NCBI GenBank assembly: GCA_964017235.1
Contig: OZ024936.1
Coordinates: 36,230,040-36,294,039, forward strand
DNA length: 64,000 bases
Origin: Sabellastarte sp. h YS-2021
Lineage: Eukaryota > Annelida > Polychaeta > Sabellida > Sabellidae
Direction of reading: 5' to 3'
The translations under genes were made by a program, and so were the position numbers. This document shows positions 1-60,400 of the stretch, piece after piece. Every line of letters begins with the position of its first letter. Position 1 is the stretch's first letter. The notes beneath the pieces are model-generated. The model saw only the letters and a list, made by a program, of their open reading frames with translations. It ran no database searches and was not told where the DNA came from.

Positions 1-880
1 CAACATGGTGAGTAACTTGGGTGTCTGTCTCAATAGCTAAGTGAGTAATAGCTACTTTTGGGCTTTTCAGTAACTTCCATCATGAGTAAAATCACTTGTA
101 ACTTGAAAACTATTGCATTTACACAATTTTGTATAAATATGTTATTCAGCTACTTTTGGGTCAGCTATAACATAGTAAAATTTCAGACCTGTAGCTCATG
201 GCATAGCTGAGTAATAGCTACTTTTAGGTTATCACTGTTGAGTAAATTACTTATAACTTCAAAAGTATTACATTTAGAGTATTTTGTTTCATATGGTTAT
301 TCACCTATTTCGGAGTCAGCTATAACATAGTGAAGTTTCAGACCTGTGGCTCATTGCATAGCTGAGTAATAGCTACTTTGAAGTTCACAGTGTTGAGTAA
401 ATCAGTTGTAATTGGAAAACTATTGCATTTACAGAAATTTGTGCAAATATGTTATTCAGCTACTTTTGGGTCAGCTATAACATAGTGAAATTACAGACCT
501 GTAGCTCATGGCACAACTGAGCAATAGCTATTTTCAGGTACTGACTGTTGAGTAAATGACTTGTAACTTGAAAAATATTGCATTTGGAGTATTTTGTTAA
601 AATATGTTGTTCACCTAATTTTGGGTCAGCTATAACATAGAAAAAATTCAGACATGTAGCTCATTGCATAGCTGAGTAATAGCTACTTTGAGGTTATCAC
701 TGTTGAGTAAATCAGTTATAACGTGAAAACTATTACATTTACAGTATTTTGTTTAAATATGTTATTCACATAATTTTTGGTCAGCTATAACAGAGTGAAA
801 TTGCAGACCTCTATGTCATGGCATAGCTTACCAATATCTACTTTCAGGTTCTCACTGTTGAGTAAATCATTGTATCCACT
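1..880 (+). repeat. Tandem array, 155-bp family (A)
   Basis: GTTATTCAGCTACTTTTGGG recurs with changes at about 141, 296, 451, 606 and 761, a strict 155-bp period. Units carry AGCTATAACATAGTGAAATT and TAACTTGAAAACTATTGCAT. Positions 1 to about 705 match 10427 to about 11131 almost base for base. Confidence 0.85.
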
Positions 881-1019
881 GGATAGCCGCAGTGTGGAGA
901 GAGATTTCACCATTACTGCTCTAACGAAAAAAAATATTATAGCTAGCCTTCTCAAGTTTGCAAGGTATATTAGAGGGTGCACCACAGTATTCTATTGGTA
1001 GGCTTTATGTCTAAATTAG

Positions 1020-1830
1020 GCCTGTGGCTAAATTACTTGCCTACTAAAAATGAGTAATTCTGCATTTTCTCTAAATGTATTGCAGATAGCAAATTTTTCT
1101 TAAATAACTCATTCACCTACTTTTGGGAGAGCTTTCACATGCTGAAGTTCCAGATCTGTAGGTAATTACTCACCTACTCAAAATGAGTAAATGCGAATTA
1201 TCTCTAAAAGTATTGCAGATAGCCAATTTTTCTCAAATAACTCATTCACCTACTTTTGGGAGAGGTTTCACTTGGTGAAGTTTCAGACCCGTAGGTAATT
1301 ACTCACCTACTGAAAATGAGTAAATGCAAATTATCTCTAAAAGTATTCCTGATAGCCAGTTTTTGTCAAATAACTCCTTCACCTACTTTTGGAAGACCTT
1401 TCACTTGGTGAAGTTTCAGACCTGTAGCTAATTATTCACCTACTCAAAATGAGTAAATGCTAATTATCTCTAAAAGTATTGCAGATATCCAATTCTTATC
1501 AAATAACTCCTTCATCTACTTTTGGGAGAGCTTTCACATGGTGAAGTTCCAGACCCATAGGTAATTACTCACCTACTGAAAATGAGTAAATTCGAATTAT
1601 CTCTAAAAGTATTGGAGATAGCCAATTTTTCTCAAATAACTCATTCGCCTACTTTTGGGAGAGCTTTCACTTGGTGAAGTTTCAGACCCATAGCTAATTA
1701 TTCACCTACTCAAAATGAGTAAATGTGAATTATCTCTGTATAGTATTGCAGATAGCCAATTTTTCTCAAATAACTCATTCACCTACTTTTGGAAGAGCTT
1801 CACACACGAAAATGAAAAATTGTGAATATC
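1020..1830 (+). repeat. Tandem array, 133-bp family (B), about 6 units
   Basis: Units contain CACCTACTTTTGGGAGAGCT, TGGTGAAGTTTCAGACCC, ACTCAAAATGAGTAAATG and TATCTCTAAAAGTATTGCAG in that order. It is the same unit as the large arrays at 26390-29460 and 42900-44985 but more diverged. Open frames through it are short and unrelated to any coding signal. Confidence 0.85.
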
Positions 1831-1859
1831 TCGGGAAAAGCTATTTCTTCTCCTTTAAT

Positions 1860-2165
1860 GCTCGGCGGGAGATACACACCGCGGCAGTGGTCTTGACAAA
1901 AAATTTTGTCTCCCCAAAAATGGTGGCCATTTTGAATTTTCAAAGTTTTTGCAAAACACAAAAATGCTTATATCTCGAAAACCGTGCTATATGGAGCGAA
2001 CTCAACAAAATTTTTGACCTGCTGGGTATCTCTGCAGAGTAGCCATGCCAATTTTCAAAATATTTTTGTCTCGCCCATTATAGCGGACATTTTTAATTTT
2101 TTAATTTTTTGCAAAACACAAAAATGCTTATATCTTGAAAACCGTGCTAGATAGAGCAGACTGCG
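1860..2165 (+). repeat. 170-bp family (C), about 1.8 units, preceded by a type II 3' end
   Basis: Two copies of a unit with TATATCTCGAAAACCGTGCT, ATTTTTGACC and CCAAAAATGGTGGCCATTTT. It begins just after CTCGGCGGGAGATACACACC and CAGTGGTCTTG (1861-1897), the 3' terminus of a second element type (type II), so type II material is captured inside a type I element. Confidence 0.75.
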
Positions 2166-2306
2166 CTGACTTTGGTTGCCACAACAGTGTAAGGCTAGAA
2201 ACGAAGCATTTTCTTAATACTTTAGCACTCTCCTTTATATCCTTTTCAGGACGCTTTGTTTTTGCTATGCAAAAACATTATCTTTTTTTTGCGAGCGATC
2301 CTCTAG

Positions 2307-3302
2307 TTTGGTTAGAGTTTGGGGTAAGGAAGATGGTATGTGAGGAGGTGTACGTTGAAAATTCCCAGATTGAAAATTCCCAGATGGAAAATCCCCGGAA
2401 ATCTGCAGACCCATAGAAAATCCCCCAATCAAAAAATCCCTAAAAGTAATAGTAAAAGATAAGGTACACTTTATTTGGAGTTACTGAACTTGACACACAT
2501 TCAGGTTTGGTATATTGCTGCACTGAATATTAAGATTTTAACATGATTTAAAAACACATCTTTTTAAAAATTGCTGTTAACATTTCCTTTGATAGAATTA
2601 GTTTCTTAGTAGGTTTAAAAGCTCCTTTAGGATGCCTATAATAATATCAACCCTTAAAGACTTAAAAGGTGTTTGAATGGGTTCCATTGCAAACATGAAA
2701 GTGCTTAAATGTTGAGTTAGTCTTTCAACATCCTTCCTGAGCAGTTATCAAAGAAAGAATCAGCCTATCTATCTATAGACAATGGGACAAATAAAAGCTA
2801 CTTTCCCTTATAGCAATTAACAGTTAGGGCCACACTTTATACAGGTAGATTAAAGAACACAGTTATAAAATAGTTCTTTAATACATCAATTCATAGAGGG
2901 CTACAAATCTAATCTGATTAATTGGAAGCCACATGCATTCCCTGGAAGAGGTAGATTAAAGACTACAGTTAAAAGTGGTTTATTTAATCGGTGAATAATA
3001 AAAAAGAAAAGGGAGTACCACACAATTAGTTTGAGAGGGACAGGAATTGGAAGCCACATCATAGACAAAGACAACATAACAATGCATTTGTCAATGTAAA
3101 GACCACTGTTAAAACTGGTTTATTTAATCAATGAAGAACAAAAAGGAAAAGGAAGGGCCAAAATTATTTTGAAGATGACAGTAATATACAATATACATAT
3201 ACAATCATGTGAGGAAACCAGTAGGTTGAAAGACTCGACAGGTATGTTTATGAGCAATAATGTAATAATCTATTAAGGTTACCTTAACATTTACATATTA
3301 TT
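2307..3302. other. Gene-free stretch with degenerate repeats
   Basis: No coding signal. At 2350-2460 there is a short run of GAAAATTCCC/GAAAATCCCC subrepeats, similar in style to the arms of the foldback element at 18.35 kb. From about 2840 to 3170 there are diverged direct repeats (GTAGATTAAAGA.., TGGTTTATTTAATC, TTGGAAGCCACAT) spaced about 90-150 bp. Probably old transposon remains. Confidence 0.4.
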
Positions 3303-3715
3303 ATCTCTGCCGGGCTTTAGCCCTGGAATTTTTCGCAAAAATTGCAAAGCACAAAGTGCTTATAGCTCGAGAACCGTTCTAGATAGAGGGATTTTGACGA
3401 AATTTTAACCCACAGGGTATATCTTCAGAGTAGTCATCCCAATTTTCAAAAAAATTTTGTCTCGCCAAAAATAACGACCATTTGGAATTTTCAAATTTTT
3501 TGCAAAAATTGCAAAACACAAAAATGCTTATATCTGGAAAACCATGCTAGATAGAGCAATTTCGACGAAATCTTTGACCCACAGGGTATCTCTTCAGAGT
3601 AGCCATCCCAATTTTCAAAAAAAAATTTGTCTCTCCAAAAATGGTGGCCATTTTGAATTTTCAAATTTTTCGCAAAAATTGCAAAACACAATTGTGTGTG
3701 TGTGTTTATGTTATG
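3303..3715 (+). repeat. 170-bp family (C), about 2.2 units, with a type II-like left tip
   Basis: Starts with TATCTCTGCCGGGCTTTAGCCC, the hairpin-forming 5' tip of type II elements, and passes at once into 170-bp units (TATAGCTCGAGAACCGTTCT, GATTTTGACGAAATTTT). Ends in a TGTGTGTGTGT run near 3692. A truncated element. Confidence 0.65.
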
Positions 3716-4849
3716 GTAAACCATTTGCTATTAAATTTGTCTCATGCTGAAAAAAGGCTTCTATGAATTTCCTTTTTTGAGCAGATCTATATAATTTATT
3801 CATTTTATGTAATTAAGTAGCCCGTCAGGGGCGCTTATTTCTTTTCATGTAAATTCGACTGATCACCGACGCCGCAGGATTATGGTCTCCCTTGAATAAC
3901 TTCTTGGATTTTCAAATTTTTCTTTCCTTCTTATCTTTCTTTAAAACTATAGGGGCAGGAAAAATTTTTGGGATACTTTGCGGAGACCTTAAGCTTTACT
4001 TAAGGTAGCCTTAAGCATTTTTCAAAAACACCCCATCATCGCTTTTCAGGAAAAAACCACACACACCTCTGCTATAAAATTTATCAGGTACATTCTAGAC
4101 CTAAATCTAAAGGTCGGAAAGGATTTTCTGATCAATCGGACCATAGATGCCTGAATGGGAGGAGTTTTATTTTCGTAAATTTTTTTTAAATGGGTACTTG
4201 GTCTGTATCTCAAAAACGGTCAGGATTTCAGCGTTTTGTTGGAATAACTTATTCAGCTACTTTTTATAATCTTTCACATGCCGAAGTTTTAGCCTTGTAT
4301 CTGCAATCTTAAGGTCACCTTAATATCGAAAAATGGGGTTTTGAGCCCTCCAGTTCACTTAGTTTTTCACTTTTTTCAACCAAACTGGGCATATATATTA
4401 AGATTTTCCAAATGAGTATCCTGACTTTATGGTGACCTTAAACTGTTAATATAATTGGAGCTATAACAATAACATCTGATAACATGACTTTGTGTATTTT
4501 TTTTACAATGGAACAATAAAGGATTTCACAAATATGATTATCTTAAGCATATTTATCTTATAAAAATATTAAATAGCAAAGTATTTTCAGAGGCATAAAC
4601 ATATGAATGTCTCTATCTATAGCCAATTATAGTTTACTACAGTGTTCCTTTATCATTATAAATCTAGGATTAAATATCTCCTGGAAAAAATTTACAATCC
4701 CAAATTTATGATCCCAAATTTACAGCAAAAATGATATATTCTTTTCATAAAATATACCACTCTACAAAACACAATAAAGCTCACATTCTGCTTACAGTCT
4801 AATACTGCAATTGATACAGTTTTTATTGTTTTCACCCATGGTGTCCGGA

Positions 4850-7070
4850 TGGGCGGGCGGGCGGGCGGCGGGAAATAGTTTGTCCGGGCTGTATCTCAGA
4901 AACCGTAAGGTGTAGGAAGTTGATACTTGGTAGGGACATTGGTTAGGGGGTGTAGGTGTGCAACGTCATGGTCTGACCTTGATTTGACCTTTGACCTTGC
5001 CGTAGTGACCTTGACCTATAAAATCTTGTCCGGGCTATATCTCGGAAACCGTAAGGTGTAGGAAGTTGATACTTGGTGGGGATATTGGTTAGGGGGTGTA
5101 GGTGTGCAACGTCCTGGTCTGACCTTGATTTGACCTTTGACCTTGCCGTAGTGACCTTGACCTATAAAATGTTGTCCGGGCTATATCTCGGAAACTGTAA
5201 GGTGTGGGAAGTTGATATTTGGTAGGGACATTGGTTAGGGGGTGTAGGTGTGCAACGTCATGGTGTGACCTTGATTTGACCTTTGACCTTGCCGTAGTGA
5301 CCTTGACCTATAAAATCTTGTCCGGGCTATATCTCAGAAACCGCAAGATGTAGGAAGTTGATATTTGGTAGGGACATTGGTTACGGGGTGTAGTTGTGCA
5401 ACGTCATAGTCTGACCTTGATTTGACCTTTGACCTTGCCGTAGTGGCCTTGACCTATAAAATCTTGTCCGGGCTATATCTCGGAAACCGTTAGGTGTAGG
5501 AAGTTGATACTTGGTAGGGATATTGGTTAGGGGGTGTAGGTGTGCAACGTCATGGTGTGACCTTGATTTGACCTTTGACCTTGCTGTAGTGACCTTGACC
5601 TATAAAATGTTGTCCGGGCTATATCTCGGAAACTGTAAGGTGTGGGAAGTTGATATTTGGTAGGGACATTGGTTAGGGGGTGTAGGTGTGCAACGTCATG
5701 GTGTGACCTTGATTTGACCTTTGACCTTGCTGTAGTGACCTTGACCTATAAAATCTTGTCCGGGCGAAACCGTAAGGTGTAGGAAAGTGATATTTGGTAG
5801 GGACATTGGTTAGGGGGTGTAGGTGTGCAACGTCATGGTGTGACCTTCATTTGACCTTTGACCTTGCCGTAGTGACCTTGACCTATAAATTCTTGTCCGG
5901 GCTATATCTCGGAAACCGTAAGGTTTAGGAAGTTGATATTTGGTAGGGACATTTGTTAGGGGGTGTAGGTGTGCAGCATCATGGTCTGATCTTGATTTGA
6001 CCTTTGACCTTGCCGTAGTGGCCTTGACCTATAAAATCTTGTCCTGGCTATATCTCAGAAACCGTAAGGTGTAGGAAGTTGATACTTGGTAGGGATATTG
6101 GTTAGGGGGTGTAGGTGTGCAACGTCATGGTGTGACCTTGATTTGACCTTTGACCTTGCCATATTGACCTTGACGTATAAAATGTTGTCCGGGCTATATC
6201 TCGGAAACCGCAAGGTGTAGGAAGTTGATATTTGGTAGGGACATTGGTTAGGGGGTGTAGGTGTGCAACTTCATGGTGTGACCTTCATTTGACCTTTGAC
6301 CTTGCCGTAGTGACCTTGACCTATAAATTCTTGTCCGGGCTATATCTCGGAAACCGTAAGGTTTAGGAAGTTGATATTTGGTAGGGACATTTGTTAGGGG
6401 GTGTAGGTGTGCAGCATCATGGTCTGATCTTGATTTGACCTTTGACCTTGCCGTAGTGGCCTTGACCTATAAAATCTTGTCCTGGCTATATCTCAGAAAC
6501 CGTAAGGTGTAGGAAGTTGATACTTGGTAGGGATATTGGTTAGGGGGTGTAGGTGTGCAACGTCATGGTGTGACCTTGATTTGACCTTTGACCTTGCCAT
6601 ATTGACCTTGACGTATAAAATGTTGTCCGGGCTATATCTCGGAAACCGCAAGGTGTAGGAAGTTGATATTTGGTAGGGACATTGGTTAGGCTTTGTAGGT
6701 ATGCAACGTCATGGTCTGACCAGGATTTGACCTTTGACCTTGCCGTAGTGACCTTGACCTATAAAATCTTGTCCGGGCTATATCTCGGAAACTGTAAGCT
6801 GTAGGAAGTTGATATTTGGTAGAGACATTGGTTAGGGGGTGTAGGTGTGCAGCATCATGGTGTGACCTTGATTTGACCTTTGACCTTGCCATAGTGACCT
6901 TGGCCTCTAAAATCTTGTCAGGGCTATATCTCGGAAACCGTAAGGTGTAGGAAGTTGATACTTTGTAGGGACATTGGTTAGGGGCTATAGGTGTGTATTA
7001 TCATGGTGTGACCTTAATTTGACCTTTTACCTTGTCGTAGTGACCTTGACCTTTAAAATCTTCATGGACC
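4850..7070 (+). repeat. Tandem array, 146-bp family (D), about 15 units
   Basis: GTCCGGGCTATATCTCGGAA recurs at 5028, 5174, 5320 and so on at exactly 146 bp, with few changes. Each unit continues GGTGTAGGAAGTTGATA, TTGGTAGGGACATTGGTTAG, GTGTAGGTGTGCAACGTCAT, then a run of TGACC motifs and CTATAAAATC. Some neighbouring pairs are near identical (5890-6330 against 6330-6770), which points to local block duplication. Confidence 0.95.
4985..6886. promoter_or_regulatory. Repeated nuclear-receptor-type motifs: DR1, extended half-site and TATA-like box, one set per 146-bp unit
   Basis: Nearly every unit contains TGACCTTTGACCT (first at 4985-4997, last intact at 6874-6886, about 14 copies). This is a perfect direct repeat of AGGTCA with 1-bp spacing on the minus strand, the classical DR1. 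About 20 bp on is TGACCTTGACCT, which includes TCAAGGTCA, the consensus ERR/SF-1 extended half-site. CTATAAAATC follows directly. The bases are seen; the factor classes are established knowledge; binding is not shown. Confidence 0.5.
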
Positions 7071-7710
7071 TTTGGGTCTGTCTTTTGATACAGATTAAGC
7101 AAAAGTCATATTAGAATTTATTAAAAATTTTACTTTCATAACTTCCCATTGTAAGAGATAGAATTTCATCAAGTGAGCCACAGATTTTGCTCCAACACCA
7201 CAATAAGCATTCATTAAATGTATTACCACTTCTGTATGCATGGTAATATTCAAACCATTTAAACCATAATTCGGCCATGCAGATGTAGATAAAGAGTGTT
7301 GAATTTTAGTTTACTGATTAATGCTGTCATCTTGTTATTGAATTATCTTGTTTTAATACTTCATCTTTATATGCATTATCTTTCTTTTAAACATTATTTC
7401 TCCATTTAAACATTGTTTGGACCTTTATATAACTGACAGTGCTCTGAAAGTATCCTGAAGTTTGTACTGGTACAGTACTTCTATATCTCATGGTGTTGAA
7501 AATATTTCCCTAGGCTGTGGGGTACGGGCATCTCTGATGCTATTTTTAGATAATCCACTTTTCCATCAGATACAAAACACAGTAAAGCTTACCTTCTTCT
7601 TACAGTCTCATACCACAACTACTACAGCTTTATTAACTCAAGTCTGCATCTGGGCCGCTCGTTTTTGTTAGCAAAAACATTTTTCTAGTTGGGAGGTATG
7701 CGTGAAACCA

Positions 7711-8517
7711 ACCCGCCTATTAGATTGATGTGTCCGACATCTGTCTATCCGTCCACATTTTTCATTTCCGGACTCTAACTCGAAAACGGTTTGTCCAATT
7801 GAATTCAAACTTGACAGGGAGATAGATCACCATCATAGCTAGGTTCCTTTTGAAATTGGTGTAATTCCATCCATTCGTTTATTTTTTTTTTGTCCGTTTG
7901 TCCATCCATCTGTCCATCCACATTTTCGTTTCCGGACTCTAACTCAAAAATGGTTTGTCCAATCGAATTCAAACTTGACAGGGACATAGATCACCATCAT
8001 AGCTAGGTTCCTTTCGAAATTGGTGTAATTCCGTCTGTCCGTTTGTCCGTCCACATTTTTGTTTCCTGGACTCTAACTCGAAAACAGTTTGTCCAATCGA
8101 TTTGAAACTTGACAGGGACATAGATCACCATCACAGCTAGGTTCCTTTTGAAATTGGTGTAATTCCGTCCGTTTTTTTGTCCGTTTGTCTGTCCGTCAAA
8201 ATTTCTGTTTTCCGGACTCTAACTCGAAAACGCTTTGTCTAATCGAATTCAAACTTGACAGGGAGATACATCACCATCATAGCTAAGTTGCTTTTGAAAT
8301 TGGTGTAATTCTGTCCTTTCGTTTGTCCGTTTATAGCATAGATACATTTATGTAACCTAGATTACAAGTTTTACGTTTCTTAGGACATCTAACACATTCA
8401 CCTTAACTGGGTGACCTAACATTTCTTTCCTTGTTTCTAAATGTAATTACAGCAGTCGCTAACCTTATTGCTGCCTGCACAACCCGCCTTTTGGGGCATC
8501 TTTGACCCTCTTGTTTT
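7711..8517 (+). mobile_element. Array-bearing element, F family, about 4 irregular units
   Basis: Begins ACCCGCCTATTAGATTGATG and ends AACCCGCCTTTTGGGGCAT, GACCCTCTTGTTT. A shorter copy with the same two ends lies at 24641-24990. The core has four units with GGACTCTAACTCGAAAACGG and TTCAAACTTGACAGGGA, spaced 164, 134 and 146 bp (GG at 7770, 7934, 8068, 8214), separated by GTCCGTTTGTCC-rich spacers of varying length, which explains the irregular period. Confidence 0.65.
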
Positions 8518-9325
8518 AGTTTGTTGAATACTGTACGATTCTGAGTATGATGAAAATGTAGTAAACATTTAATTTTCAACTATTCAACAAAAAATGTCAA
8601 AATTTTCATGACATATTGTTGAAGTGTTACAGTAAATGAGACCTGATCTCTCCACTTGATTTTGGTCCAAGGTCATTAGTTGCCTTTACAGGGAGTATGC
8701 ATGTTGTCTGTGAAGCAGTGGAAGACTGGGAGTTAAATTTAACTTAGGTTGAACTTAGTTTATTGTGATAAAAGATCTAAAAATGTACAGAAATTTTTAG
8801 TTTTATTTGTAACCAACAGGCAGTTACCAGTGAAAGAAACATGACAGATGATGTAAACAAATGTTATGAAAATAAATTGTTAAATATCTGTTAAAAAGAC
8901 ATTAAGGTGATTTTTTAAACATTTAAGTAGATGTTAAATTGGTTTTCCGTTCAGATGCAGGAGAACTACTAGCTGTGATTGAAAAGTGTATGTAAGAATT
9001 GGTTTTTCACAAACAGTAGATTATTCAGTTATTTAGCTGTACCTATTTTGGCATACACCCAATCACCAAGAATTAAAATATATTTATAACTGGTTAATAA
9101 TTTGTGATATTATGGCAGTGTTCTGACTTCATTTCATTGCAAAGCATTAGTGTCATTGCCTGGGTAATCTTTTTGCATATTTTACTTTGTTAAAGTCCCC
9201 TAATATCACCCATTGTACTTGGCTTTTCAGATAATAAGTATAGTGACTGCTGCCTCACTGTAGTTAATTATTGGAAAAGTCTTTCCATAGAGTCTTCCTG
9301 TAGGGATAACTTGACTTCTTTACAG
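8518..9325. other. Intron sequence, no gene found
   Basis: AT-rich with stops in all frames. No exon-like open segment with splice sites is visible upstream of the acceptor at 9325, so earlier exons of the host gene probably lie left of the window or were missed. Confidence 0.5.
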
Positions 9326-9518
9326 GTAATGCTCTGAAGCTGACCTCAGCCAGACAGGAGTATCCTGAAGCATTTTTTACCTGCAGTTACGATGGAAGGG
9401 TCAACGAGGACATTTTCTTGTGGTGGTTTCGGGATCACTTCCTGAAGAAAGTGCCGTGCTGTGCCTCTAGACCAGGAGTGCTGTTTATCAGTCGGGGAGT
9501 CAGTGACATCACCATGCA
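9326..9518 (+). CDS. Domesticated pogo/Tigger-like transposase gene, first visible exon (DDE domain, second catalytic position)
   Basis: The acceptor is TTCTTTACAG and the donor CA/GTATGT. The exon opens with two bases of a split codon and ends with two. Its peptide runs from NALKLTSARQEYPEA through FLWWFRDHFLKKV to RPGVLFISRGVSDITM. It aligns by eye with the DDE_1 superfamily (pogo, Tigger, jerky), where W-F..HFL is followed by RP-x-LLLLDGHSSH. The position of that catalytic Asp is Ser here (FISRG). The donor was chosen because CA joins the first base of the next exon as CAA (Gln) and restores the expected continuation into LLQLA. Upstream exons are not seen. The gene is intact through all eight exons, unlike the transposon ORFs round it. 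It most likely encodes a nuclear, DNA-binding, non-transposing protein; no function is assigned. Confidence 0.85.
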
Positions 9519-10359
9519 GTATGTGTCACCAAGTGCAGTTTATGCTTCCCATTGTCTTGATTTTGTACTAAGAAAAACCAGGGACGGGTATCCATTGTGT
9601 TATAACTAGTGATGGGTCAGTCTCAAACATGTGTAGATCGGGAGGTCACCAATACAAAACCGTACCGATTTCAGGACTTCGCATTTTAGTACACCCCAAC
9701 CAAACATGGACGTTTCCTCTTACAACATTGCAATAAAAGGCCTCAAATATACAAAATATGGGTTAAAGGTGCAGAATTTCTTCAGATTTCTGGTTTGTTT
9801 CCAATATTTTAAGTTTTTCTTCAATTATATGTGTTGACAAGTGAGATTAAGGTTATTAAATATAAATACCAAAACATGGCAGTTCTCAACATAATCACTA
9901 TAAAAGTCAGCAAAATGCATGCAAATATAGGATAAAAGCTTATAGTTTTTATGTCGTCACTCTGCGGCGTGGGCGTACGCGTCCACGTACACGTCCGCGT
10001 GAACAACTTCTCCTCCAAAACTACAAGGCCTAGAGACATGCTGTTTTTTTTAAAAGATACCTTATCTATCGAGGATGAAAAAGTGTTCAAGGCATGCAAA
10101 TCTGTCTGTTCGTCTGTTTGCTAGAGACATTATAAGGGAGGTACCCCCCACCAACAGTGTGAAAATTTCAACACTTAATCACAATTTTCTCAGTGACTAT
10201 TGCAGGGATTTCTCTCATATCTTGCATATATGTACTAGGCCAGAGGTAGATTCTCTTGTGTGAGTGTGAGACCTGGACCTGTCTTATTTTTTTTAATACA
10301 TTTTTTAATAATTTTTATGCATTAAAATTCATGAAATCATGCACTAAATCACTTACAAC

Positions 10360-11140
10360 TTGAAAAGTGTTGCATTTAGAGCATTTTGTTAAAATATGTT
10401 ATTCAGCTACTTTTTTCAGAGCTACAACATGGTGAGTAACTTGGGTGTCTGTCTCAATAGCTAAGTGAGTAATAGCTACTTTTGGGCTTTTCAGTAACTT
10501 CCATCATGAGTAAAATCACTTGTAACTTGAAAACTATTGCATTTAGAGAATTTCGTATAAATATGTTATTCAGCTACTTTTGGGTCAGCTATAACATAGT
10601 AAAATTTCAGACCTGTAGCTCATGGCATAGCTGAGTAATAGCTACTTTTAGGTTATCGCTGTTGAGTAAATCACTTATAACTTGAAAACTATTGCATTTA
10701 GAGTATTTTGTTTCAATATGTTATTCACCTATTTTGGGGTCAGCTATAACATAGTGAAGTTCCAGACCTGTGGCTCATTGCATAGCTGAGTAATAGCTAC
10801 TTTGAAGTTCTCACTGTTGAGTAAATCAGTTGTAATTGGAAAACTAGTGCATTTACAGAAATTTGTGTAAATATGTTATTCAGCTACTTTTGGGTCAGCT
10901 ATAACATAGTGAAATTACAGACCTGTAGCTCATGGCACAACTGAGCAATGGCTATTTTTAGGTACTGACTGTTGAGTAAATCAGTTGTAACTTGAAAAAT
11001 ATTGCATTTGGAGTATTTTGTTAAAATATGTTGTTCACCTACTTTTGGGTCAGCTATAACATAGTAAAAATTCAGACATGTAGCTCATTGCATAGCTGAG
11101 TAATAGCTACTTTGAGGTTATCACTAGGTTATCACTGTAC
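10360..11140 (+). repeat. 155-bp family (A) array, about 5 units
   Basis: From 10427 it copies positions 1 to about 705 with only scattered changes, then breaks off after a short local duplication (AGGTTATCACT twice near 11115-11135). It lies inside the hAT-like element. Confidence 0.85.
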
Positions 11141-48934: not shown

Positions 48935-48958
48935 CCCCCCCCCCCCCCCCCCCCCCCC
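48935..48958 (+). repeat. Poly-C tract, 24 bp
   Basis: Uninterrupted C run inside the Helentron-like element. Length may be affected by sequencing error. Confidence 0.9.
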
Positions 48959-49259
48959 GTCATCACAGTTCAGGAAAAACTGCTTGCTACACAGCCTTAT
49001 AATTTGACACACCTGTTCATACTATCGAAAACGCGAGCTGATTAGATTTTGGGAGCAATCCCTTGAAAAATGTCTCATTTATGGGTGATTTCCTCACACC
49101 TTCCAATCTGAGAGCCTTAAATTTAGGTCAACCCCTCTATTATCTTCTTAAGTATTGCATTTAGAGCCATAAGATGTATTGGGAGGTAATAGGAAACCAT
49201 ATGTGTAGAGTCTAAATAGCCGGTCAGTTTTACCCCCCGACCCCCCCTTATGGGTCAAA

Positions 49260-50425
49260 CTGGGGTCATAAAATAGCTGATTTTCAGTTTTTGCCTTATA
49301 TCTCCTTTATTGTTGCTTTTATAGCTTCAGAATGTATTAAGAGGTATTGGGAAAGCATATGTGGAGAGTCTAAATAGCCGGTCAGTTTTACCCCACGGCC
49401 CCCCCTTATGGGTCAAACTGGGGTCATAAAATAGGTGATTTTCAGTTTTTGCCTTATATCTCCTTTATTGTTGCTTTTATAGCTTCGGAATGTATTAAGA
49501 GGTATTGGGAAAGCATATGTGGAGAGTCTAAATAGCCGGTCAGTTTTACCCCCCGACCCCCCCTTATGGGTCAAACTGGGGTCATACAATAGCTGATTTT
49601 GAGTTTTTGCCTTATATCTTTTTTATTGTTGCTTTTATAGCTTCAGAATGTATTAAGAGGTATTGGGAAAGCATATGTGGAGAGTCTAAATAGCCAGTCA
49701 GTTTTACCCCCCGATCCCCCTCCCCTTATGGGCCAAACTGAGGTCATAAATAGCTGCTTTGGAGTTTTTGCCTTATATCTCCTTTATTGTTGCTTTTATA
49801 GCTTTAGAATGTATTAAGAGGTATTGGGAAAGCATATGTGGATAGTCTACATAGCTGGTCAGTTTTACCCCCGACCCCCCCTTATGGGTCAAACTGGGGT
49901 CATAAAATAGCTGATTTTCAGTTTTTGCCTTATATCTCCTTTATTGTTGCTTTTATAGCTTCAGAATGTATTAAGAGGTATTGGGAAAGCGTATGTGGAG
50001 AGTCTAAATAGCCAGTCAGTTTTACCCCACGGCTCCCCCTTATAGGCTAAACTGGGGTCATAAATAGCTGCTTTGGAGTTTTTGCCTTATATCTCCTTTA
50101 TCGTTGCTTTTATAGCTTCAGAATGTATTAAGAGGTATTGGGAAAGCATATGTGGAGAATCTAAATAGCTGGTCACTTTTACCACCCGACCCCCCCCCCC
50201 TTATGGGTCAAACTGGGGTAAAAAATAGCTGTTTTGGAGTTTTTACCTGATAGCTCCTTTATTGTTGCTATTATAGCTTCGGAATGTATTAAGAGGTATT
50301 GGGAAACCATATGTGGACAGTCTAAATAGCCGGTTAGTTTTACCTCCTCACCCCCATGTATGGGTCACACTGGGGTCATGAAATAGCTTTTGCCTTTATT
50401 GTTGCTTTTATGCTTTCACAATGTA
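49260..50425 (+). repeat. Tandem array, 158-bp family (G), about 7.5 units
   Basis: GCCTTATATCTCCTTTATTG recurs at 49293, 49451 and 49609, a 158-bp period. Each unit has CTTTTATAGCTTCAGAATGT, ATTAAGAGGTATTGGGAAAG, AGTCTAAATAGCCGGTCAGT and a C-run (CCCCCGACCCCCCCTTATGG) whose length varies, which makes unit length vary by a few bases. Confidence 0.93.
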
Positions 50426-51217: not shown

Positions 51218-51738
51218 TATTTTCTCTACTACTTTCTCTACATGTATATGAGTACCATAAACACCCCATCCGAGTGACCTTTTGTATATTTTTCACATAT
51301 ATTGCCCTATAATTTGGAAATGGTAAAGTCTGAAAAGTCTCATTTTATTGCGCTACAATAGCTTACCATGTGGGACTGACTGCTGTTCTCAGATGGCCGC
51401 CAGGCCCGGCCAACGTCTAAGAAAAAGAGACATCTATTGTTGGCCGTAGCCTCAGGTTGTCGTCACGTGGTCTACCTCATTTGTCTTCTCCTTTCCTGTT
51501 GGTCGCCGCCATATTGGAATCTGTTGTGAAAAGCTTAGCCATTTGTTCTACTATATCTCACTTTATACTTATTGTTGGATGTCGATATTTAGCCATTTTG
51601 TTTTTTAATTGTCATTCATCGTTTTGTTAAAGTTTCATTGCAGTTGGATAAGTATATTTTACTTATTTCTGTGTTTTGAGCTTTTGTCTCGACAAAGGCT
51701 TGTTGTTATTGGGTTACGTTTTTTATTGCGTTTTCAAT

Positions 51739-53645
51739 ATGTCTTCTCACCAAAGCAATAAAGATAAACCCAGAGTGCTCAAATGTCATCATTTCTGCCA
51801 TTCATTTGATACTCATAACTTCTGTCCAACATACAGGGAGGCTGGCAAGGGAGATGATCCCTGTGTCACCTTCATTTCACCCTGCAATATTTGTGCTTCT
51901 TTTACAGAAGAACAAATGATCAAGATCACACATAGAAAGAGATATGTGAAGAAACAAAAATCTGATTTACCTAAGAATGATGACGAACTAGATTTATTGG
52001 GCGATCAGGAGGTTGAATCCTTCTCGGGTTCTCATGCAGACCTTGAGAGTGTTGCAGATCACCTTTTTAGTTCTCCTCTACGTCCTCAGCCACTTGCCTT
52101 CGAGGCCTTGTCATTAAAACCTCTAGCAAATCTGCCCCACCCACCCCAGGTACTGCCTTACAGCAGAAAATAGAGTCTAAGATTGAACAATCTCTGGGGT
52201 CTCGGCTAGACATCAAATTGGAACAGAAAATGGGTATTTTTCAGGCTAATATGCTCGAGGCAATGAAGTCCCTTCAGGAAGATTTTCAAAAGTCTATCCA
52301 GAAGACTTCTTCCCAAGTGGAAGTGGATAGCGGAAGCGGACCATTACTCAGATCAGACCGATGACCCTCGGCCTGTCTCTAGTAGACCAAAGAAACATGC
52401 TGACAAGACTAAACACAAATCCAGGTCCAGATATTTACCATCTTCGTCAGAGGAGGATCAGTCCTCTGTACCCAGACATAGGTCTCCAAAACCTTCTAGA
52501 AAGGCCTTTTCAGATCAAGACCAACCTCAACATGATCCAGACCCACCTTACTACAGGGAAGTAGCACTGTCTGACATTCCCTCTCAATATGCAGAGGAGG
52601 TAGATACTTTCAGGCGTATCCTGAAACTCCCTGACCCTAGGGAATCTTTGCCTAGGTCCTCCACTGCAGTAATGGCTCTAGATGACGAGAAAAGTAGACA
52701 GGAGCTCATGCCAAGAGGCCCTTCTTCTATGCTGCCCCTTAATTCTATTATCAAAGACGCCTTTGATAAATTTGATCATGACTTCCAAGCAGCAAATTTA
52801 CCTGAGGGTAAATACATAAAAGCTCTTTCCACTGACAAGTGGTGCAAGGTGGGACAGCCTTGTTATGAAGACAAAATACAGGAGCTCAATACAGACTTTG
52901 CAAAGATCTGTATTTCTCCTAAGCCCTCTGGGGCCCCTATGGGCAAGGTTCCCCTACCAATTCTCAAGGAATTGGAACACCAAGCGAGGCAAAACATCTC
53001 CACAGTCAACTTTGCCACTACCTTTGCCAAGACTTCTTCTTCTTGCAATGCCACTCTTGAGAAGTGCCAATATAGTCTGAAGTCAACCTTTAAGAAGGTT
53101 AAGTCTCAAATTCATAAAGGTGCCGATCCTGAGAAAGCAGCAAAGCGTGGATACGAGGAAGCCTGTGAATACTTGGATCTCTGGAACAAGACTGATCTAA
53201 TTCACAGGGCCTTGACATGCCTCAGCAAATTCTTAGCTCATATACTCCAGAGGGAGTTATACTCCATGGGCAACACCGGCTTGCTCAGGCGCAAAGCCGA
53301 AATGACCCTCTTACAACCACACCTAGGGGAAACGGGACGCCAGGACCTCGTCCTTTTGACCGTCTTCCCTGTTCAAGTCTCAATTAGTCAAGGAAGGTGA
53401 AGACTTCCTTCTCAAGAAAGGCACCTTAAAAGACTCTCAGGGTTTTGGACCCTATCAAAACAAGCCCTTTCGTGGTCCCCACAAGAAAAGAGGCTCCTAC
53501 AGGAAACGTCCCTACAGGGGCAACTCCTCTTAAAGCAGTAACCAATCGTTTTCCTCCAACAGAGGAAAACCAAATTTCAGAGGCTCAAGAGGTCATTTTC
53601 GACCCCACAATGGGGGACGAGGGCGTGGAAACCCCTCTCCCCAAT
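51739..53645 (+). pseudogene. DIRS gag-like ORF, frameshifted
   Basis: Start chosen at MSSHQSNKDK (51739). The N-terminal part has a Cys/His cluster (LKCHHFCHSFDTHNFC, CNICASFTEEQ) with GKGDDPC, open to 52173. The frame then changes: a coiled segment (KIESKIEQSLGSRLDIKLEQ, MLEAMKSLQEDFQKSIQK) to about 52325, another shift, and a long capsid-like part to 53400 (YREVALSDIPSQYAEEVDTF, MPRGPSSMLPLNSI, STDKWCKVGQ). After a third shift there is a basic Arg/Gly-rich end (FRGPHKKRGSYRKRPYRG, GGRGRGNPSP), like nucleic-acid-binding gag tails. At least three frameshifts and one stop (53530). Confidence 0.8.
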
Positions 53646-53663
53646 GACTCCTTAAAAGCCTCT

Positions 53664-55555
53664 CTCAGTCCACCAGTAGGAGGTCGCCTCCATTCTTTCA
53701 GAAGAGACTGGCAAGCAAACAGATGTTCATCCAACTTGTGTAACATTATCACCAATGGCTACGTACTGCCATTCCTCTCAAAACCAAACTTGGTCAGATT
53801 TCCTCTGATTCTATCAGAATACAAGGACCTTCAAAAAGGCCAACCTCTGGCCGATTATATCCAGTCTCTTCTGTCAAAGAACGCAATCGAAAGGGTGGAA
53901 AATGTAAAATCTCTCGAGTTTTACAGTCGCTTGTTTCTAGTCCCCAAGCCTCACCAAAGGTGGAGGCCAGTAATAGACTTAAGCAGGCTCAACACTTTTC
54001 TACATGTAGAAAAGTTCAAAATGGAAACTCCAGAGTCCATCAGGACCTCCCTGATTCCAGGGGAATGGATATCATTGATAGACCTATCTGACGCTTACCT
54101 CCACACCCCATCCACCCAAACTCAAGGAAATACCTAAGGTTTTGCCACAGGTCTCAGGTGTTTCTTTTCACCTCCCTCCCTTTCGGACTAGCCACAGCCC
54201 CCAGGTCTTTACAATGATCGTAATGGAAGTGAAGCTAATGGCCCTCTCCAGAGGACTCAGAATTTACCAATACCTGGACGACTGGCTGATCAGGTCCCAG
54301 TCTCAGGAGGAAGCCCTAGTGAACAACCAGATAGTAGTAGACCTAACCCAGTCTTTGGGGTGGATAATAAATCAGGAAAAATCAGAACTGAAACCTACTC
54401 AGGTGTTTTCATTTGTGGGCTACGAATACCATCTAGATTCAGCCCTCATTCAAGATAGATGGCTCAAACTTCAGGATTTGATCCTGCGTCTCAAATCAAA
54501 ACATGTTTTGACTGCAAGATGTTTGATGTTGCTAATTGGGTTGCTTGCCTCAACGGAGAAAATGGTGCCGGAGGGACGCCTTCACATAAGGCCCTTTCAG
54601 TTTCACCTCAAGGAGCACTGGAAATATCCTCAGTCGCTGGACAGCCTCCTTCCTTGGACAGAAATGATTTCTGCACACCTAGAATGGTGGCAGAACCCCA
54701 CAAATGTGATGATAGGCGTGGACCTTCATCCCAAAGACCACAGCATCCAACTCTTTACAGACGCCTCAAACAAAGGTTGGGGCGCTCACTTAAATCAAAG
54801 TTCTACCAAGGGTCTGTGGTCAGACGGGGCAAAAAGGCTACACATAAATGTCCTAGAGTTGAAGGCGGTTTCACTGGCCCTTTGAAGCTTCAAGGACCAG
54901 TGTCAGAACCAAACTGTACTAGTTGCAACGGACAACTCAACAGTGGTAGCCTACATCAACAAACAAGGAGGAACTCACTCAGCGGAGATGTGTGCGCTCC
55001 TGTGGAAGATTATGACATGGTGCCATCATTATCACATAACATTGAAAGCCAGACACATTCCAGGGTGTCTGAATGTGATCGCCGAGCTTCTGTCCAGGTC
55101 CAACCAAGTTCAATCAACAGAATGGTCACTGCACCCTCAGGTGTTCAAACAGATCTGTCGGAGGTGGTTCACCCCTCATGTAGATCTATTTGCCACTCCT
55201 CTAAACCACAAACTTCCACAGTACGTCTCTCCAATCCCAGACCCAAAGGCTTGGGACATAGATGCTCCGAACATAAACTGGACGGGTCTCACGGCTTATG
55301 CTTACCCTCCAACGGCTCTCCTTCACAGGGTGATCCAAAAAATCAGGCAATGCCACTGCCTGATCATAGTAATTACCCCAGGCTTGCCAGGGATGCCCTG
55401 GTTTTGGGACCTAGTGAAGCTCTCTACAGAGATCCCACTACAACTCCTGGTGTCAACAACTCTGCTCAAACAGTCCCACAGTTATGTGTTTCACAGCAAT
55501 CCGCAACATCTCAACCTCCACACCTGGTGTCTAGGAGTAGACAACTCCAAGAACA
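53664..55555 (+). pseudogene. DIRS reverse transcriptase, RNase H and following region, frameshifted
   Basis: Begins PPVGGRLHSFRRDW. RT blocks: FYSRLFLVPKPHQRW, PVIDLSRLNTFLHVEKFKME and ISLIDLSDAYLH. A one-base loss near 54110 shifts the frame; then FGLATAP, YLDDWLI (54271-54291, catalytic), and VFSFVGYEYHLDSA. RNase H: LFTDASNKGWGAHL (first Asp at 54760), INVLELKAVSLA, a shift near 54885-54940, VAYINKQGGTHSAEM and ARHIPGCLNVIAELLSR. After it is the conserved DIRS region HVDLFATPLNHKLPQYV, GLPGMPWFWDLVKLS, HTWCLG, ending about 55555. The last ~1 kb is also open in the recombinase frame. Confidence 0.9.
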
Positions 55556-56659
55556 AGGCTTCTCTGTGGAGGTGGCAGAGAGAATTGCTGTCTCTCAGCG
55601 GTCAACAAGGACCATCTACAAGTCAAAGTGGGCCCTATTTGAGAAATGGTGCAGAGAAAATTCGGTGCATTTCTCCACTCCATCTATGAAACAAATCTCA
55701 GTTTTTTTCCTGTACCAAGACCTAAACAGGCGCCCCTCGACCATTGATGGTTACAGGACGGCCATTGTTGACTCTTTGGGCCCAGCGGGCCACCATATTA
55801 CACAAAGTTCAGACCTTCACAGGTTACTCTCCAGTTTTCACAGGGATCGTCCCAAAAGTTCCAGGAATCTTCCTAAGTGGAACCTTTCTGTTCTTCTCAA
55901 TGAGCTCACAAAAGCACCATTTGAGCCTATGAAAGACACAGACCTCAAACATCTTACTCTCAAAACTGCATTCTTGCCAGCTTTGGCCTCCGGCAAGCGC
56001 CGCAGCGAAATCCATGCCTGGATCACAAACAAAGTATCTAATCTGGACCAATGGGAAAAGGTTGCCTTGTTCCCTTCTTCTGACTTCATAGCCAAAAACC
56101 AACTAGCAAGAGAAGGTTCTCAAAGTGTGTCTCCAGTGACTATTCCTGCTTTGACTACCATTGTAGATAGACAATTCAAAGAAGACAGGGCCCTGAGTCC
56201 TGTGCAGGCCCTGAGGTACTATTTGGATTGGACCAAAGAACTGAGAGGGTCTCGATCCCTCCTTTTCATCTCCAAGAAAGGACATACCTCAAACATCAGA
56301 CCCGCTACTCTCTCTTCGTGGTTGAAAGAAACCATTCTACTTTGTAAAAAACAAGCAGACCAACAACCCTCGTCCAAGTTAAAGCGCATCACATTGGGGC
56401 CTTCGTGGCCTCTAAGGCCTTTTACGGTGGGGTATCGGTGGACCAAATCATGCAAGCCTGTCACTGGAAAGCTCACAACACATTTACAAATTTTTATCTA
56501 AAAGACCTTACTTGGTCAGACAAAGACAACAATATGTATCTGGGGCCAGTAGTAGCGCCACAACAGGTCCTAGACCCTTCCCTCAGACCAGTCATCCTCA
56601 GAAAGAAAAGAATGGGGGGGGGGGGCACATCCGCTGCAACCAAGTCTTCAGGAGTCTAA
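55530..56659 (+). pseudogene. DIRS tyrosine recombinase, frameshifted near the C-terminus
   Basis: Frame shared with an open stretch from 54459 to 56501, but recognisable recombinase begins about 55530: GFSVEVAERIAVSQRSTRTI, KWALFEKWCRENSV, SQISVFFLYQDLNR-like helices, FLPALASGKRRSEIHAW (first catalytic Arg, 55988-56008). A frame change near 56375 leads to AHHIGAFVASKAFYGG (second box; the usual HxxR Arg is not obvious) and HWKAHNTFTNFYLKDL (nucleophile Tyr at 56494). The region after it has a 12-base G run at 56614. DIRS uses this enzyme to insert its circular DNA without target duplication. Confidence 0.85.
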
Positions 56660-57224: not shown

Positions 57225-58500
57225 TATTAGAATAGAATAGAATAGAAACATTTATATAGCGCAAAATTGATGTAACATCCTCTAATGCGCTTGAGGTCAA
57301 AAAGGGAAGGTCCAGGGACGTATCAGGTCAAGATCTGAAAATTAGCGTCCGCCAGGGAGATGTACTATGGAGGAGGATATGCTAGTCTAAACAAATAGGT
57401 CTTTAGCTGGCTACGGAAACCTGTTATTGTTTGCTGTGATCGTACTGATTGTGGGAGTCTGTTCCATTCTGTGGGGGAAGCCATTGCAAAACCTCGCCTA
57501 CCAATGGCCTTTTTGTGAGAGACTGAGGAAAGAGAAAGACGATTTCCACGCGTTAAACAACTGGTTTTGATCAAGGATGATAGGTATATGGGTCGAGAGA
57601 ATATGATAGCCTTGAAAGTAATTAGATTGTACTTAAACAAGATGCGGTATGTGATAGGGAGCCAGTGTAGTTTTTGAAGAAAGGGAGTGACATGGCTAGT
57701 TCTATCAAGTCCAAAAACAATTCTAAAAAGGGCATTTTGAATCTTTTGGAGTTTAGCTACATTGTATTTACTTACGCCATAAAGTAGGGAATTGCAGTAG
57801 TCAAGTTGACTGCTGATCATTGAGTTTGCAAGCAAGGCTGCAGTATCCACTCTGAGGAATTTACGGATGCGTCTTAGGTCCTTAAGGTGGTAGTAACAAG
57901 CGCGACACATATTGGTTATGTGGCTAGAAAAGGTGTTTCCGGAGTCAAAAGTAACACCTAGGTTCTTGACTGTATCGGTAGGGGAGATAGAATTTCCAAG
58001 AAGTTGAATGGGGAATTTGTTGATGAGGGACTCTCTGGCTTGTCTATCACCAATGATGATAAATTCAGTTTTCTCAGGGTTAAGTTTAAGTTTCACACCA
58101 GCCATCCAGTTTTGGACACATGTGAGACACTCAGTAAGCTCAGCAAAACTGGAATCAAAGTTCCTATGGTCCAGTGCTAGATATATTTGGGTGTCATCAT
58201 AGTATAGAGGGTAAAAAGAAGGGGGCCCAGTACAGAGCCCTGGGGCACACCATATGGGAGTGAGAAAGCATCTGAAAAGCTATTACCTAGTTTAACCTTT
58301 TGTTTGCGGTTTGAAAGATAGGACTTGATCCACCTCAACACAGTGCCATCAACCCCAAACCAATCCCTGAGGGAATTAAAAAGAATGTCATGGTCGATAG
58401 TGTTGAATGCCGCTGAGAGGTCCAGCAATGTGAGTGCAACAGCCTTACCAGAGTCCATCGAAGCAGCAATGTCATCCTGGATTATATTACAGCTGAGGGG
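57225..58500 (-). pseudogene. LINE (CR1/L2-like) 3' half, with reverse transcriptase and tail
   Basis: Minus strand. First frame (58500-58180): SMDSGKAVALTLLDLSAAFN, DWFGVDGTVLRWIKSYLSNR, GVPQGSVLGPLLFTLY. The sequence then jumps straight to YDDTQIYLAL, so about 20 codons before the catalytic DD are lost and the frame shifts. Second frame (58105-57365): KLKLNPEKTEFIIIGDRQA, VKNLGVTFDS, DYCNSLLYGVSK, HWLPITYRILFKYNLITFK and WNRLPQSVRSQQTI. The 3' tail GCGCTATATAAATG with TTCTA repeats ends at about 57225. It lies between two DIRS end units. Confidence 0.9.
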
Positions 58501-58534
58501 GTATGGGTTTAAATCTCAACGAGAAAGACAAATG

Positions 58535-58870
58535 GGGTAGACCACGTGATGACAACCTGAGGCTACGGCCAACAATAAATGGCTGTTTTTCTTAGACATT
58601 GGCCGGGCCTGGCGGCCATCCGAGAACAGCAATCAGTCCCACATGGTAAGCTTGTAGCTTATAAAAGCTACATTTAAGTAATTAAAATTTTCAATTTTTT
58701 TTCGCTACAATAGCTTACCATGTGGAACTGAATGCTAACTCGGGAGGCCGCAGGCATCCGGCCAACATCCAAGAAAAATAGAGATCTAGTATTGACCAAA
58801 TCCCCTGTCGTGAGGGTGTACCAAAGCAGTGTAATCCCACGCTTCATCCTTCTTCTCTCGTTGGCCGCTT
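58535..58870. mobile_element. DIRS ends in inverted arrangement
   Basis: 58537-58632 is the inverse of the leader of the 51.3-kb DIRS (51380-51480: ACCACGTGAT, GGCCAACAAT, GGCCGGGCCTGGCGGCCATC). 58633-58731 is the ~99-bp end unit. 58700-58870 is a second, diverged leader in + orientation (GGCCAACATCCAAGAAAAAT). So two solo DIRS ends point away from a shared terminal palindrome. No coding part remains. Confidence 0.75.
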
Positions 58871-59029
58871 GACTAGCAAGCTTTTAAAATAAGCTTATTT
58901 TATTTCACTGTTTTCTCAAGATACACATATTGTTGGATGTTACCATTTAGTCATTTGTTTTATTATATATCATAGCTTATTCTGTTAAAATTTGAATTCT
59001 GTAGGATAAGTTTTCATTAATTCATAAAG
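58871..59029. other. AT-rich spacer
   Basis: Resembles the DIRS leader at 51590-51660 (TTGTTGGATGT.., AGTCATTTGTTTTAT), probably the rest of the diverged leader. Confidence 0.4.
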
Positions 59030-59099
59030 GCTGGGGTTATAGTCGTCCCCTGCGCCGTCTGGGTGGCGGCGGCAGGCATAAAGCTTGTGGGTGTTCCAC

Positions 59100-60400
59100 A
59101 GCCTAAAGCCTTGCACGGATTTTCACCAAATTTTTAGGGGATGTTTATCCCAAGAGGATCTAGAGCTGATTAGGTTTTGGGGGGTATCTGGTAACAACTG
59201 TTGCCATGGCAACACTTTTAAGATTTTTGGGTCTTAAAGTTTGTGGGTGTTTCACAGCCTAAACCCCTTCAAGGATTTTCACCAAATTTTCAGGGTATGT
59301 TTATCCTAAGAGGATCTAGGGCTGATTAGGTTTTGGGAAGTATCCAGTAACAACTGTTGCCATGGCAACACTTATAAGATTTTCGGGTCTTAAAGTTTGT
59401 GGGTGTTCCACAGACTAAACCCCTGCATGGATTTTCACCAAATTTTCAAGATATGTTTACCCCAAGAGGATCTAGAGCTGATTAGGTTTTGGGGGGTATA
59501 TGGTACCAACTGTTGCCATGGCAACACTTTTAAGATTTTCAGTTCTTAAAATTTGTAGGTGTTCCACAGCTTAAACCCCTGCACAGATTTTCACCAAATT
59601 TTCAGGGAATGTTTACTTCAAGAGGATCTAGAGCTGATTAGGTTTTGGGGGGTATTCAGTTACAACTGTTGCCATGGCAACACTTTTAAGATTTTCGGGT
59701 CTTAAAGTTTGTGGGTGTTCCACAGCCTAAAACCCAACCTAGAGCTGATTAGGTTTTTGGGGTATCCGGAAACAACTGTTGCCATGGCAACACTTATAAG
59801 ATTTTCGGGTCTTAAAGTTTGTGGGTGTTCCACAGACTAAACCCCTGCATGGATTTTCACCAAATTTTCAAGATATGTTTACCCCAAGAGGATCTAGAGC
59901 TGATTAGGTTTTGGGGGGTATATGGTACCAACTGTTGCCATGGCAACACTTTTAAGATTTTCAGTTCTTAAAATTTGTAGGTGTTCCACAGCTTAAACCC
60001 CTGCACAGATTTTCACCAAATTTTCAGGGAATGTTTACTTCAAGAGGATCTAGAGCTGATTAGGTTTTGGGGGGTATTCAGTTACAACTGTTGCCATGGC
60101 AACACTTTTAAGATTTTCGGGTCTTAAAGTTTGTGGGTGTTCCACAGCCTAAAACCCAACCTAGAGCTGATTAGGTTTTTGGGGTATCCGGAAACAACTG
60201 TTGCCATGGCAACATTTTAAAGATTTTCAGGTCTTAAAGTTTGTGGGTGTTCCACAGCCTTAACCCACACATGGATTTTCACCAAATTTTCAGGATATGT
60301 TTACCCCAAGAGAATCTAGAGCTGATTAGGTTTTGGGGGGTATCTGGCAGCAACTGTTGCCATGGCAACACTTAAAATTTTGGGGTCTTAAAGTTTGTTC
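59100..60400 (+). repeat. Tandem array, 156-bp family (H), with a 422-bp higher-order duplication
   Basis: GTTGCCATGGCAAC lies at 59200, 59356, 59512, 59668, 59778, 59934, 60090, 60200 and 60356. Spacing is 156 bp except for two 110-bp steps. The run 156+156+110 occurs twice, and the two 422-bp blocks (about 59400-59820 and 59822-60242) are almost identical. Unit text: CCCCAAGAGGATCTAGAGCT, GATTAGGTTTTGGGGGGTAT, CTTAAAGTTTGTGGGTGTTC. Confidence 0.95.
59200..60369. promoter_or_regulatory. Nine palindromic RFX-type X-box motifs, one per repeat unit
   Basis: GTTGCCATGGCAAC is a perfect palindrome and matches the RFX X-box consensus GTNRCC-N(0-3)-RGYAAC with a 2-bp spacer. It is unchanged in all nine units although other parts of the units vary. 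Further copies in the split H element: 46101-46114 (GTTGCCATGGTAAC) and 47087-47100. RFX factors control ciliary genes in animals; binding here is not shown. Confidence 0.5.

Follow-up and report, generated by a model that had tools for sequence, protein, structure and literature searches.

A core shared by unlike tandem arrays of putative non-autonomous Helentrons in Sabellastarte, and the strand of neighbouring copies

The window analysed here, a stretch of 64,000 nucleotides from the sabellid annelid Sabellastarte sp. h YS-2021 (assembly GCA_964017235.1, contig OZ024936.1; contig 14, 36,230,040-36,294,039, in a searched genome of 1.786 Gb and 647 contigs), contains tandem arrays that were detected with Tandem Repeats Finder (TRF) and are referred to below as families 133, 146, 147, 151, 152, 155, 156, 158, 170, 321 and F. 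Unlike families among them share a common core beyond chance. Judging from their flanks, the arrays appear to be the central repeats of non-autonomous Helentrons (HINEs), ordinary in kind, and on the samples studied, neighbouring copies tend to share strand over tens of kilobases. A preliminary description, whose arrays are all listed by TRF, had placed one core motif under at least nine unlike families. The shared core stands, both in leave-group-out tests and in alignments. Not all of the families are separate, since homology spans most of the monomer among 133, 155 and 321 and likewise between 170 and 151; the nine therefore reduce to about six groups in our sorting. The 156 and 152 consensuses lack a core on the plus strand. 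In addition, ATATCTCAAAAACCGT, which had been given as the 152 form, actually lies within the 151 array, at about 12225.

The core was tested with a 24-nt matrix built from every family group except the tested one and scored on the circular consensus, with dinucleotide shuffles as background (2000 in the run in which two families were removed together, 1000 in an earlier run). With 2000 shuffles, the matrix from the other groups recognised 170 and 146 (both p=0.0005), F (p=0.003), 133 (p=0.0065), 155 and 321 (both p=0.001); with 1000 shuffles, it recognised 151 (p=0.002) and also 147 and 158 (p=0.001 each while the other remains in the matrix). The best match in the left-out families is on the plus strand, and matches of at least 13 bits in the window number 117 plus and 0 minus. 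Control arrays (three consensuses from two arrays) gave plus-strand values of p 0.30, 0.80 and 0.88. No core was found in the consensus of the 156 array at 59079-60398 (p=0.82), and none on the plus strand of the 152 consensus from the array at 39063 (p=0.65; minus strand p=0.010), immediately upstream of which cores stand at 39008 and 39043. The 321 consensus likewise has a weaker minus-strand match (p=0.015), and we attribute both minus matches to the near-palindromic form of the group A core. When 12 consensuses were aligned locally, each with each and with no motif supplied (66 pairs, 300 shuffles), p<=0.05 was reached in 12 plus pairs vs 7 minus pairs, the lowest minus p being 0.027. The core is the aligned part in 170/146, 151/146, 146/F and 170/147 (p=0.003, the floor of the test), as well as in 147/158 (p=0.02); three plus pairs, 146/147 (p=0.007), 321/158 and 170/158, align outside it. 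Significant similarity between family consensuses was thus found by profile comparison, the approach on which the idea of a common core had been said to hinge.

In a self-comparison, the modules flanking the arrays recur at several places in the window and follow the order of a HINE, that is, a left repeat with a hairpin, a short microsatellite, the array, a complementary right repeat and a palindrome. Arrays between the ends of a group all lie in one orientation, and every feature located below is on the plus strand. A 5' subterminal repeat with an adjacent inverted repeat is present in groups A, B and C and unclear in group D; microsatellites (GGGC, TGCG, GTCC-type and 9-nt repeats) stand on the left flank before the central repeats; a 3' repeat complementary to the 5' repeat, with a palindrome, occurs in A, B and C, if not in every copy; and T-rich insertion without target duplication is seen at one empty site. 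In the window, Rfam covariance models (hammerhead and other ribozyme and RNA families) gave 0 matches at gathering score, and no tRNA-derived sequences were found.

Group B comprises the 146 arrays and, by its right end, the 147 array. Its left end consists of TACCCCACAGCC with GGGCTGTCGGGGTA, an inverted copy and a G-rich microsatellite, and its right end of GGCTGTGGGGTA followed by the palindrome GCATCTCTGATGC, with changes in some copies. The copy at 36839-38255 has this order throughout, with a 146/139-bp array and a change in the palindrome; that at 4823-7546 has a truncated left end, a 146-bp array at 4880-7062 and both right-end modules; that at 22474-23830, also with a 146-bp array, is degraded and truncated; and at 16134-17285 a 147-bp array precedes a group B right end, the left end not being recognised. 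The copy at 46129-46990, whose right repeat is degraded, has landed within a T-run in a repeat of the 156 family, and joining its flanks restores that repeat without target duplication, with gaps further right. The left ends at 36839, 38329, 40303, 44987 and 46129 all begin in T-runs.

Group A carries 155, 133, 321, 151 and 152 arrays between a left end with ATCTCCCGCC...GGGAGGGAGAT, an inverted copy and a TGCG microsatellite, and a right end made of GGCGGGAGAT and the hairpin ACCACgccaGTGGT. Its members include an element at 11273-12880 (left end, 155-like monomers, an interruption and a 151-bp array, closed by a right end near 12860), one at 38329-39480 (left end, 155-like arrays giving way to 152 arrays, ill-defined right end), one at 40303-44983 (left end with the TGCG microsatellite, 321 array, a 151-like monomer and a 133 array) and a short arrayless one at 44987-45250, in which the left end is followed by the right repeat. 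A group A left end is fused to two 170 monomers at 3301-3691, and 155-bp arrays occur at 83-874 and 10351-11125.

Group C has left ends with AAGCGTCCC...GGGACGCTT, at 25050 before 170/133 arrays and at 48731 before a 158 array, and right ends with GGACGCTT and GTTTTTGC or GCAAAAAC, at 29904 and 2250. The element at 25050-29945 has the AAGCGTCCC hairpin, a 9-nt microsatellite, a single core at 25131 and then the 170 and 133 arrays, with a group A right end inside it at 29519 and that of group C at 29904-29930; the element at 48731-50388 has a single core at 48801 and a 158-bp array, its right end not being found. The right half of the former is matched by 1031-2290, which holds a 133 array, 170 remnants and a group C right end (1031-2308 vs 28687-29965, 94% identity). 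A 170 array followed by a 133 array stands behind a group C left end at three places, 25050-29945, 77904-81908 and 130069-134279. Group D, with less clear ends, carries the F array at 7708-8516 (GTCC-type microsatellite, core at 7772) and has one core copy at 24640-24992. Group E carries the 156 family without a core, as a left end and repeat at 45915-47114, split by the group B copy at 46129-46990, and as a 156-bp array at 59028-60398; among the 156-bp repeats at 59079-60398, those units that were read have the palindrome GTTGCCATGGCAAC, and the period shifts between 156 and 110.

The exact core pattern occurs at 51,037 places genome-wide (25,320 plus, 25,717 minus; reversed control 0) and the group B left end at 8,292 (4,136 plus, 4,156 minus; control 0). 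Within the 264 kb around the window, cores of at least 14 bits number 313 plus vs 20 minus, and pattern searches for the left ends of groups A-D found 15 in one orientation and 0 in the other, the four groups agreeing. Strand agreement was counted on the first 100 of the 51,037 core places and the first 100 of the 8,292 group B left ends, both on contig 1, and the following counts hold among the matches listed. Adjacent group B left ends agree in 19/20 cases under 20 kb and in 12/18 at 20-50 kb; for all pairs, agreement is 21/22 under 20 kb, 22/30 at 20-50 kb, 23/33 at 50-100 kb, 24/45 at 100-200 kb and 102/227 at 400-800 kb, against an expectation of 0.545 given the 65:35 split. Core clusters merged at 5 kb agree in 27/35 pairs at 10-50 kb, 26/33 at 50-100 kb and 39/57 at 100-200 kb, and farther out in 52/123 at 200-400 kb and 90/249 at 400-800 kb. 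An asymmetry of T-runs was rejected as the cause of one-strand insertion: T-runs of at least 6 outside arrays number 256 vs 191 A-runs, a difference too weak, and the 15:0 left ends are therefore not explained by it. In the titles and abstract openings of the papers listed by a literature search for Helitron orientation bias, strand domains of Helentrons are not reported.

Strand domains might arise solely from segmental duplication, or from repeated insertion beside an existing copy, and among the alternatives this one retains the most weight, although we think it unlikely to account for the domains. It would fit the 94% likeness of 1031-2308 and 28687-29965, the three group C elements with 170 and then 133 arrays, at 25050, 77904 and 130069, all plus, and the peak of agreement under 20 kb. 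However, the group B copies of the window are alike only as far as the ends of the elements, four different end groups share the orientation, and reverse-transcriptase open reading frames (ORFs) of the same 264 kb are found on both strands.

Where the core stands within the elements was examined at 16 left ends picked by eye, the best match within 150 nt being scored. With a matrix from the other groups, a core is found 44-121 nt from the left end, at p<=0.022, in 10/16; it follows the left-end microsatellite, and some elements have just one copy of it. The strongest of these is the group C single copy (25131-25175, 22.8 bits, p=0.001), which is also the best single-copy bipartite core, with ACTC and then AAATTTGGCAGG 29 nt on. 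A block following the core at 15-35 bp had previously been described. The second block of the core, A[AT]A[CT]TTGGCAGG, indeed lies exactly 29 nt past [AT]CTC in four modules of three end groups, namely F, 146 and both group C single copies (p_fixed 0.0005-0.004; the consensus came from the 25131 copy), whereas 133, 155, 321, 170, 151, 147 and 158 lack it at 29 nt. In the 200 kb beside the window (coordinates are those of the window, extended), 42 arrays with a period of 90-350 were surveyed; 34/42 belong to the window's core families, with core p<=0.010 by a matrix not independent of those families. Three of the 8/42 arrays outside these families, at 137295-138662, have core p 0.017-0.047 and carry the first block together with GGATTTTGATGAAATTTTCAGG (also given as GGATTT..GAAATTTTCAGG). 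Weak likeness to 156 is seen in two of them (E 5e-6 and 1e-4, small database), a hint of the way in which 156 may be linked with the core families.

The idea of one old repeat superfamily can be kept in so far as the families form a related set, but they are better described as a segment behind the left-end microsatellite of non-autonomous Helentrons than as a free-standing satellite superfamily. The opposite order of events, in which an old free satellite of the BIV160/Cg170 kind was repeatedly captured as filler by different HINEs, seems to us unlikely. It draws on the two conserved motifs described for BIV160/Cg170 monomers in the consulted parts of PMC5139131 and on the standalone and double arrays of oysters, as given in parts of PMC8268682 and PMC7492417. 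Yet the single cores of group C stand after the microsatellite in the same orientation, though the arrays behind them are of other families.

Still less probable is the view that every monomer uses the core, for instance to bind a protein of replication or chromatin. The presence of the core across groups would speak for it, as would the pairing TATCT...AGATA that is possible by eye in some group A cores (12225-12250, 39043-39072, 26590-26615, 40877-40905); the 321 core reads TAACT...AGTTA, a paired change that is too weak for a claim of structure. However, in 100 monomers over 8 families, with gaps scored as differences, lower variability of the core inside arrays was not seen (Fisher p=0.76; 0.57 for a 50-nt block), and the share of 24-nt windows conserved at least as well as the core ranges over 0.06-0.93 in the 8 families. 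The core varies like the rest of the monomer, and a duty of every monomer is therefore unsupported; the same holds for the earlier suggestion, as regards array monomers, that the core is kept for a function. Fold prediction, which had also been proposed, gave core folds no better than shuffles in most families, and there was no Rfam match. Between families, core conservation is 0.69 vs 0.52 elsewhere in group A1, where a better window lies downstream of the core, and 0.49 vs 0.48 in group A2. Together with the variability inside arrays, these averages favour an inherited module of the left part, and one core copy near the left end may still have a role.

Chance likeness of AT-rich repeats is highly improbable. 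In its favour are the shortness of the core, the marginal values of 147 and 158 and the 7/66 minus pairs at p<=0.05, but leave-group-out tests, control arrays, the 117:0 strands and the pair alignments located in the core contradict it for the main families, the 51,037 places vs 0 reversed being mainly a sign of abundance.

Other candidates were considered for the core. Relatives in prokaryotes and viruses were rejected, as the patterns gave 0 or single matches per contig (15 and 2 stretches) in unlike contexts, which is about the chance frequency by our own estimate. In one contig of a bacterial metagenome-assembled genome the core matrix scores 23.5 bits, a single match that we attribute to chance on account of its isolation. 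A BLAST search of phages gave one match, at E=0.4, a likeness to the CENP-B box was weighed by eye only and set aside, and a literature search for the core letters found no relevant paper.

Gene strand provides a further comparison. Two exons with Pfam support lie near the window on the same strand: that of a kinase (about -76 kb; E 6e-29) and that of an exostosin (+96.65 kb; E 7e-6, below the curated cut-off). Fourteen kinase exons were found genome-wide by codon pattern, and their 3-kb surroundings were scanned for cores of at least 12 bits. Arrays (at least two cores) occur at 4/14 loci, five arrays in total and all sense, and no such cores occur within the 3-kb surroundings of 7/14. In the window, reverse-transcriptase ORFs lie on both strands at 30632-32527, 48171-48719, 51676-56501, 57365-58515 and 61757-62611, several with RVT_1 and some DIRS-like by eye. 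Exon-like plus-strand ORFs at 9325-9519, 17477-17734, 35083-36428 and -13277 to -12609 resemble, by eye, a pogo/Jerky-like host gene derived from a transposase; they have no Pfam match, and both their strand and their identity are therefore putative. Integrase-, capsid- and ATPase-like ORFs, again by eye, suggest a Maverick/adintovirus-like insertion at -71.2 to -63.4 kb, one tested piece of which had no Pfam match.

Taken as a whole, the favoured account, in which the arrays are HINE central repeats, the core is an inherited left module and the strand reflects a directional host process, appears to us probable. The HINE groups would have been moved by a putative rolling-circle Rep/helicase supplied elsewhere, and the core would be an inherited module of the elements' left part. 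Arrays might grow by tandem amplification beginning in or beside the core, and unlike monomers would therefore carry it in the same orientation, whereas outside the core, repeats might drift or be exchanged between elements. If the core works at present, it would do so in transposition, through a single copy close to the left end rather than in each monomer. Whether a copy inserts or survives would be governed by a host process that has a direction; transcription seems the likeliest, with copies sense to genes, and replication-fork direction is the alternative. A coupling of copy strand to transcription or replication is thus proposed, and neighbours that point the same way may record such a process.

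Several observations weigh against this account. As regards the core, 147 and 158 become marginal once they are handled as a single group in the stricter run, with both out of the matrix (p=0.058 and p=0.087; 2000 shuffles); the core test failed at the group A left ends 38329, 40303, 44987 and 11273 (p 0.25-0.46) and at both group E left ends (p 0.24 and 0.37); and the second block of 146 loses significance once its offset is left free (p_fixed 0.004, p_any 0.24). Several right ends of the elements are degraded or not found. As regards strand, the 264 kb contain 7 minus core clusters, including two arrays at 134.9-136.5 kb. Among the matches listed, agreement of group B left ends is not monotonic (76/119 at 200-400 kb) and runs tests are moderate, with p=0.024 for group B left ends and p=0.005, 0.050 and 0.100 for core clusters with 5-, 10- and 20-kb merging; the counts come from one chromosome and include close copies, which may be local duplications. 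Single cores near kinase exons are one sense (15.2 bits) and two antisense (13.0 and 16.2 bits), and the gene-strand sample is small, 4/4 loci not being significant alone (two-sided p=0.125, by hand).

A bolder version of the account, in which one-way insertion or survival has turned thousands of copies into a fossil strand map of the genome with domains of about 50-200 kb and the core is an ancient Helentron left-end part shared with DINE-1, is held only tentatively and seems somewhat more likely to be wrong than right. Letters attributed to fly INE-1 agree with the 146 core at 27/48 positions when the register is fixed at TCTC (p=0.0002, the floor of the test) and give p 0.0008-0.064 with 15 other modules, which is a lead only. 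On the favoured account, many unlike satellite families become products of one element design, and such elements acquire a search signature: left-end hairpin, microsatellite, core, 29 nt and second block. If strand domains hold genome-wide, Helentron orientation would serve as an inexpensive indicator of the direction of transcription or replication and would test whether eukaryotic rolling-circle elements use single strands exposed by the host, like IS200/IS605. The bipartite module common to the end groups and the strand domains deserve follow-up.

The HINE layout and its oyster representatives are treated in PMC7492417, PMC4067079, PMC2374699, PMC8268682 and PMC11136912. Cg_HINE of Crassostrea gigas (PMC7492417) shares with the window's elements a 5' subterminal inverted repeat with an inverted repeat and a mostly 4-nt microsatellite, central repeats mostly of 140-180 bp in one orientation, a 3' subterminal inverted repeat with a palindrome, T-rich insertion, double arrays, and related ends with unlike repeats. 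It differs in that most of its clusters are called unrelated, except for group 1 and two segments common with cluster 4, whereas here most families are tied together by the core regardless of end group; Cg_HINE is reported to integrate in both orientations, with local agreement unmentioned in the parts covered. DINE-1/INE-1 of Drosophila (PMC2374699, PMC4067079) has the same succession of block A1, GTCY microsatellite, block A2, central repeats and block B with a hairpin, together with TT insertion. The BIV160/Cg170 satellites of bivalves, with two conserved motifs in divergent monomers, and the pearl elements that carry repeats of this type (PMC5139131) are likened by description only. Finally, IS200/IS605 (PMC5371812) resembles the proposed elements solely in how it works, by single-strand transposition in which copy orientation follows replication direction; it is bacterial and unlike them in anatomy.

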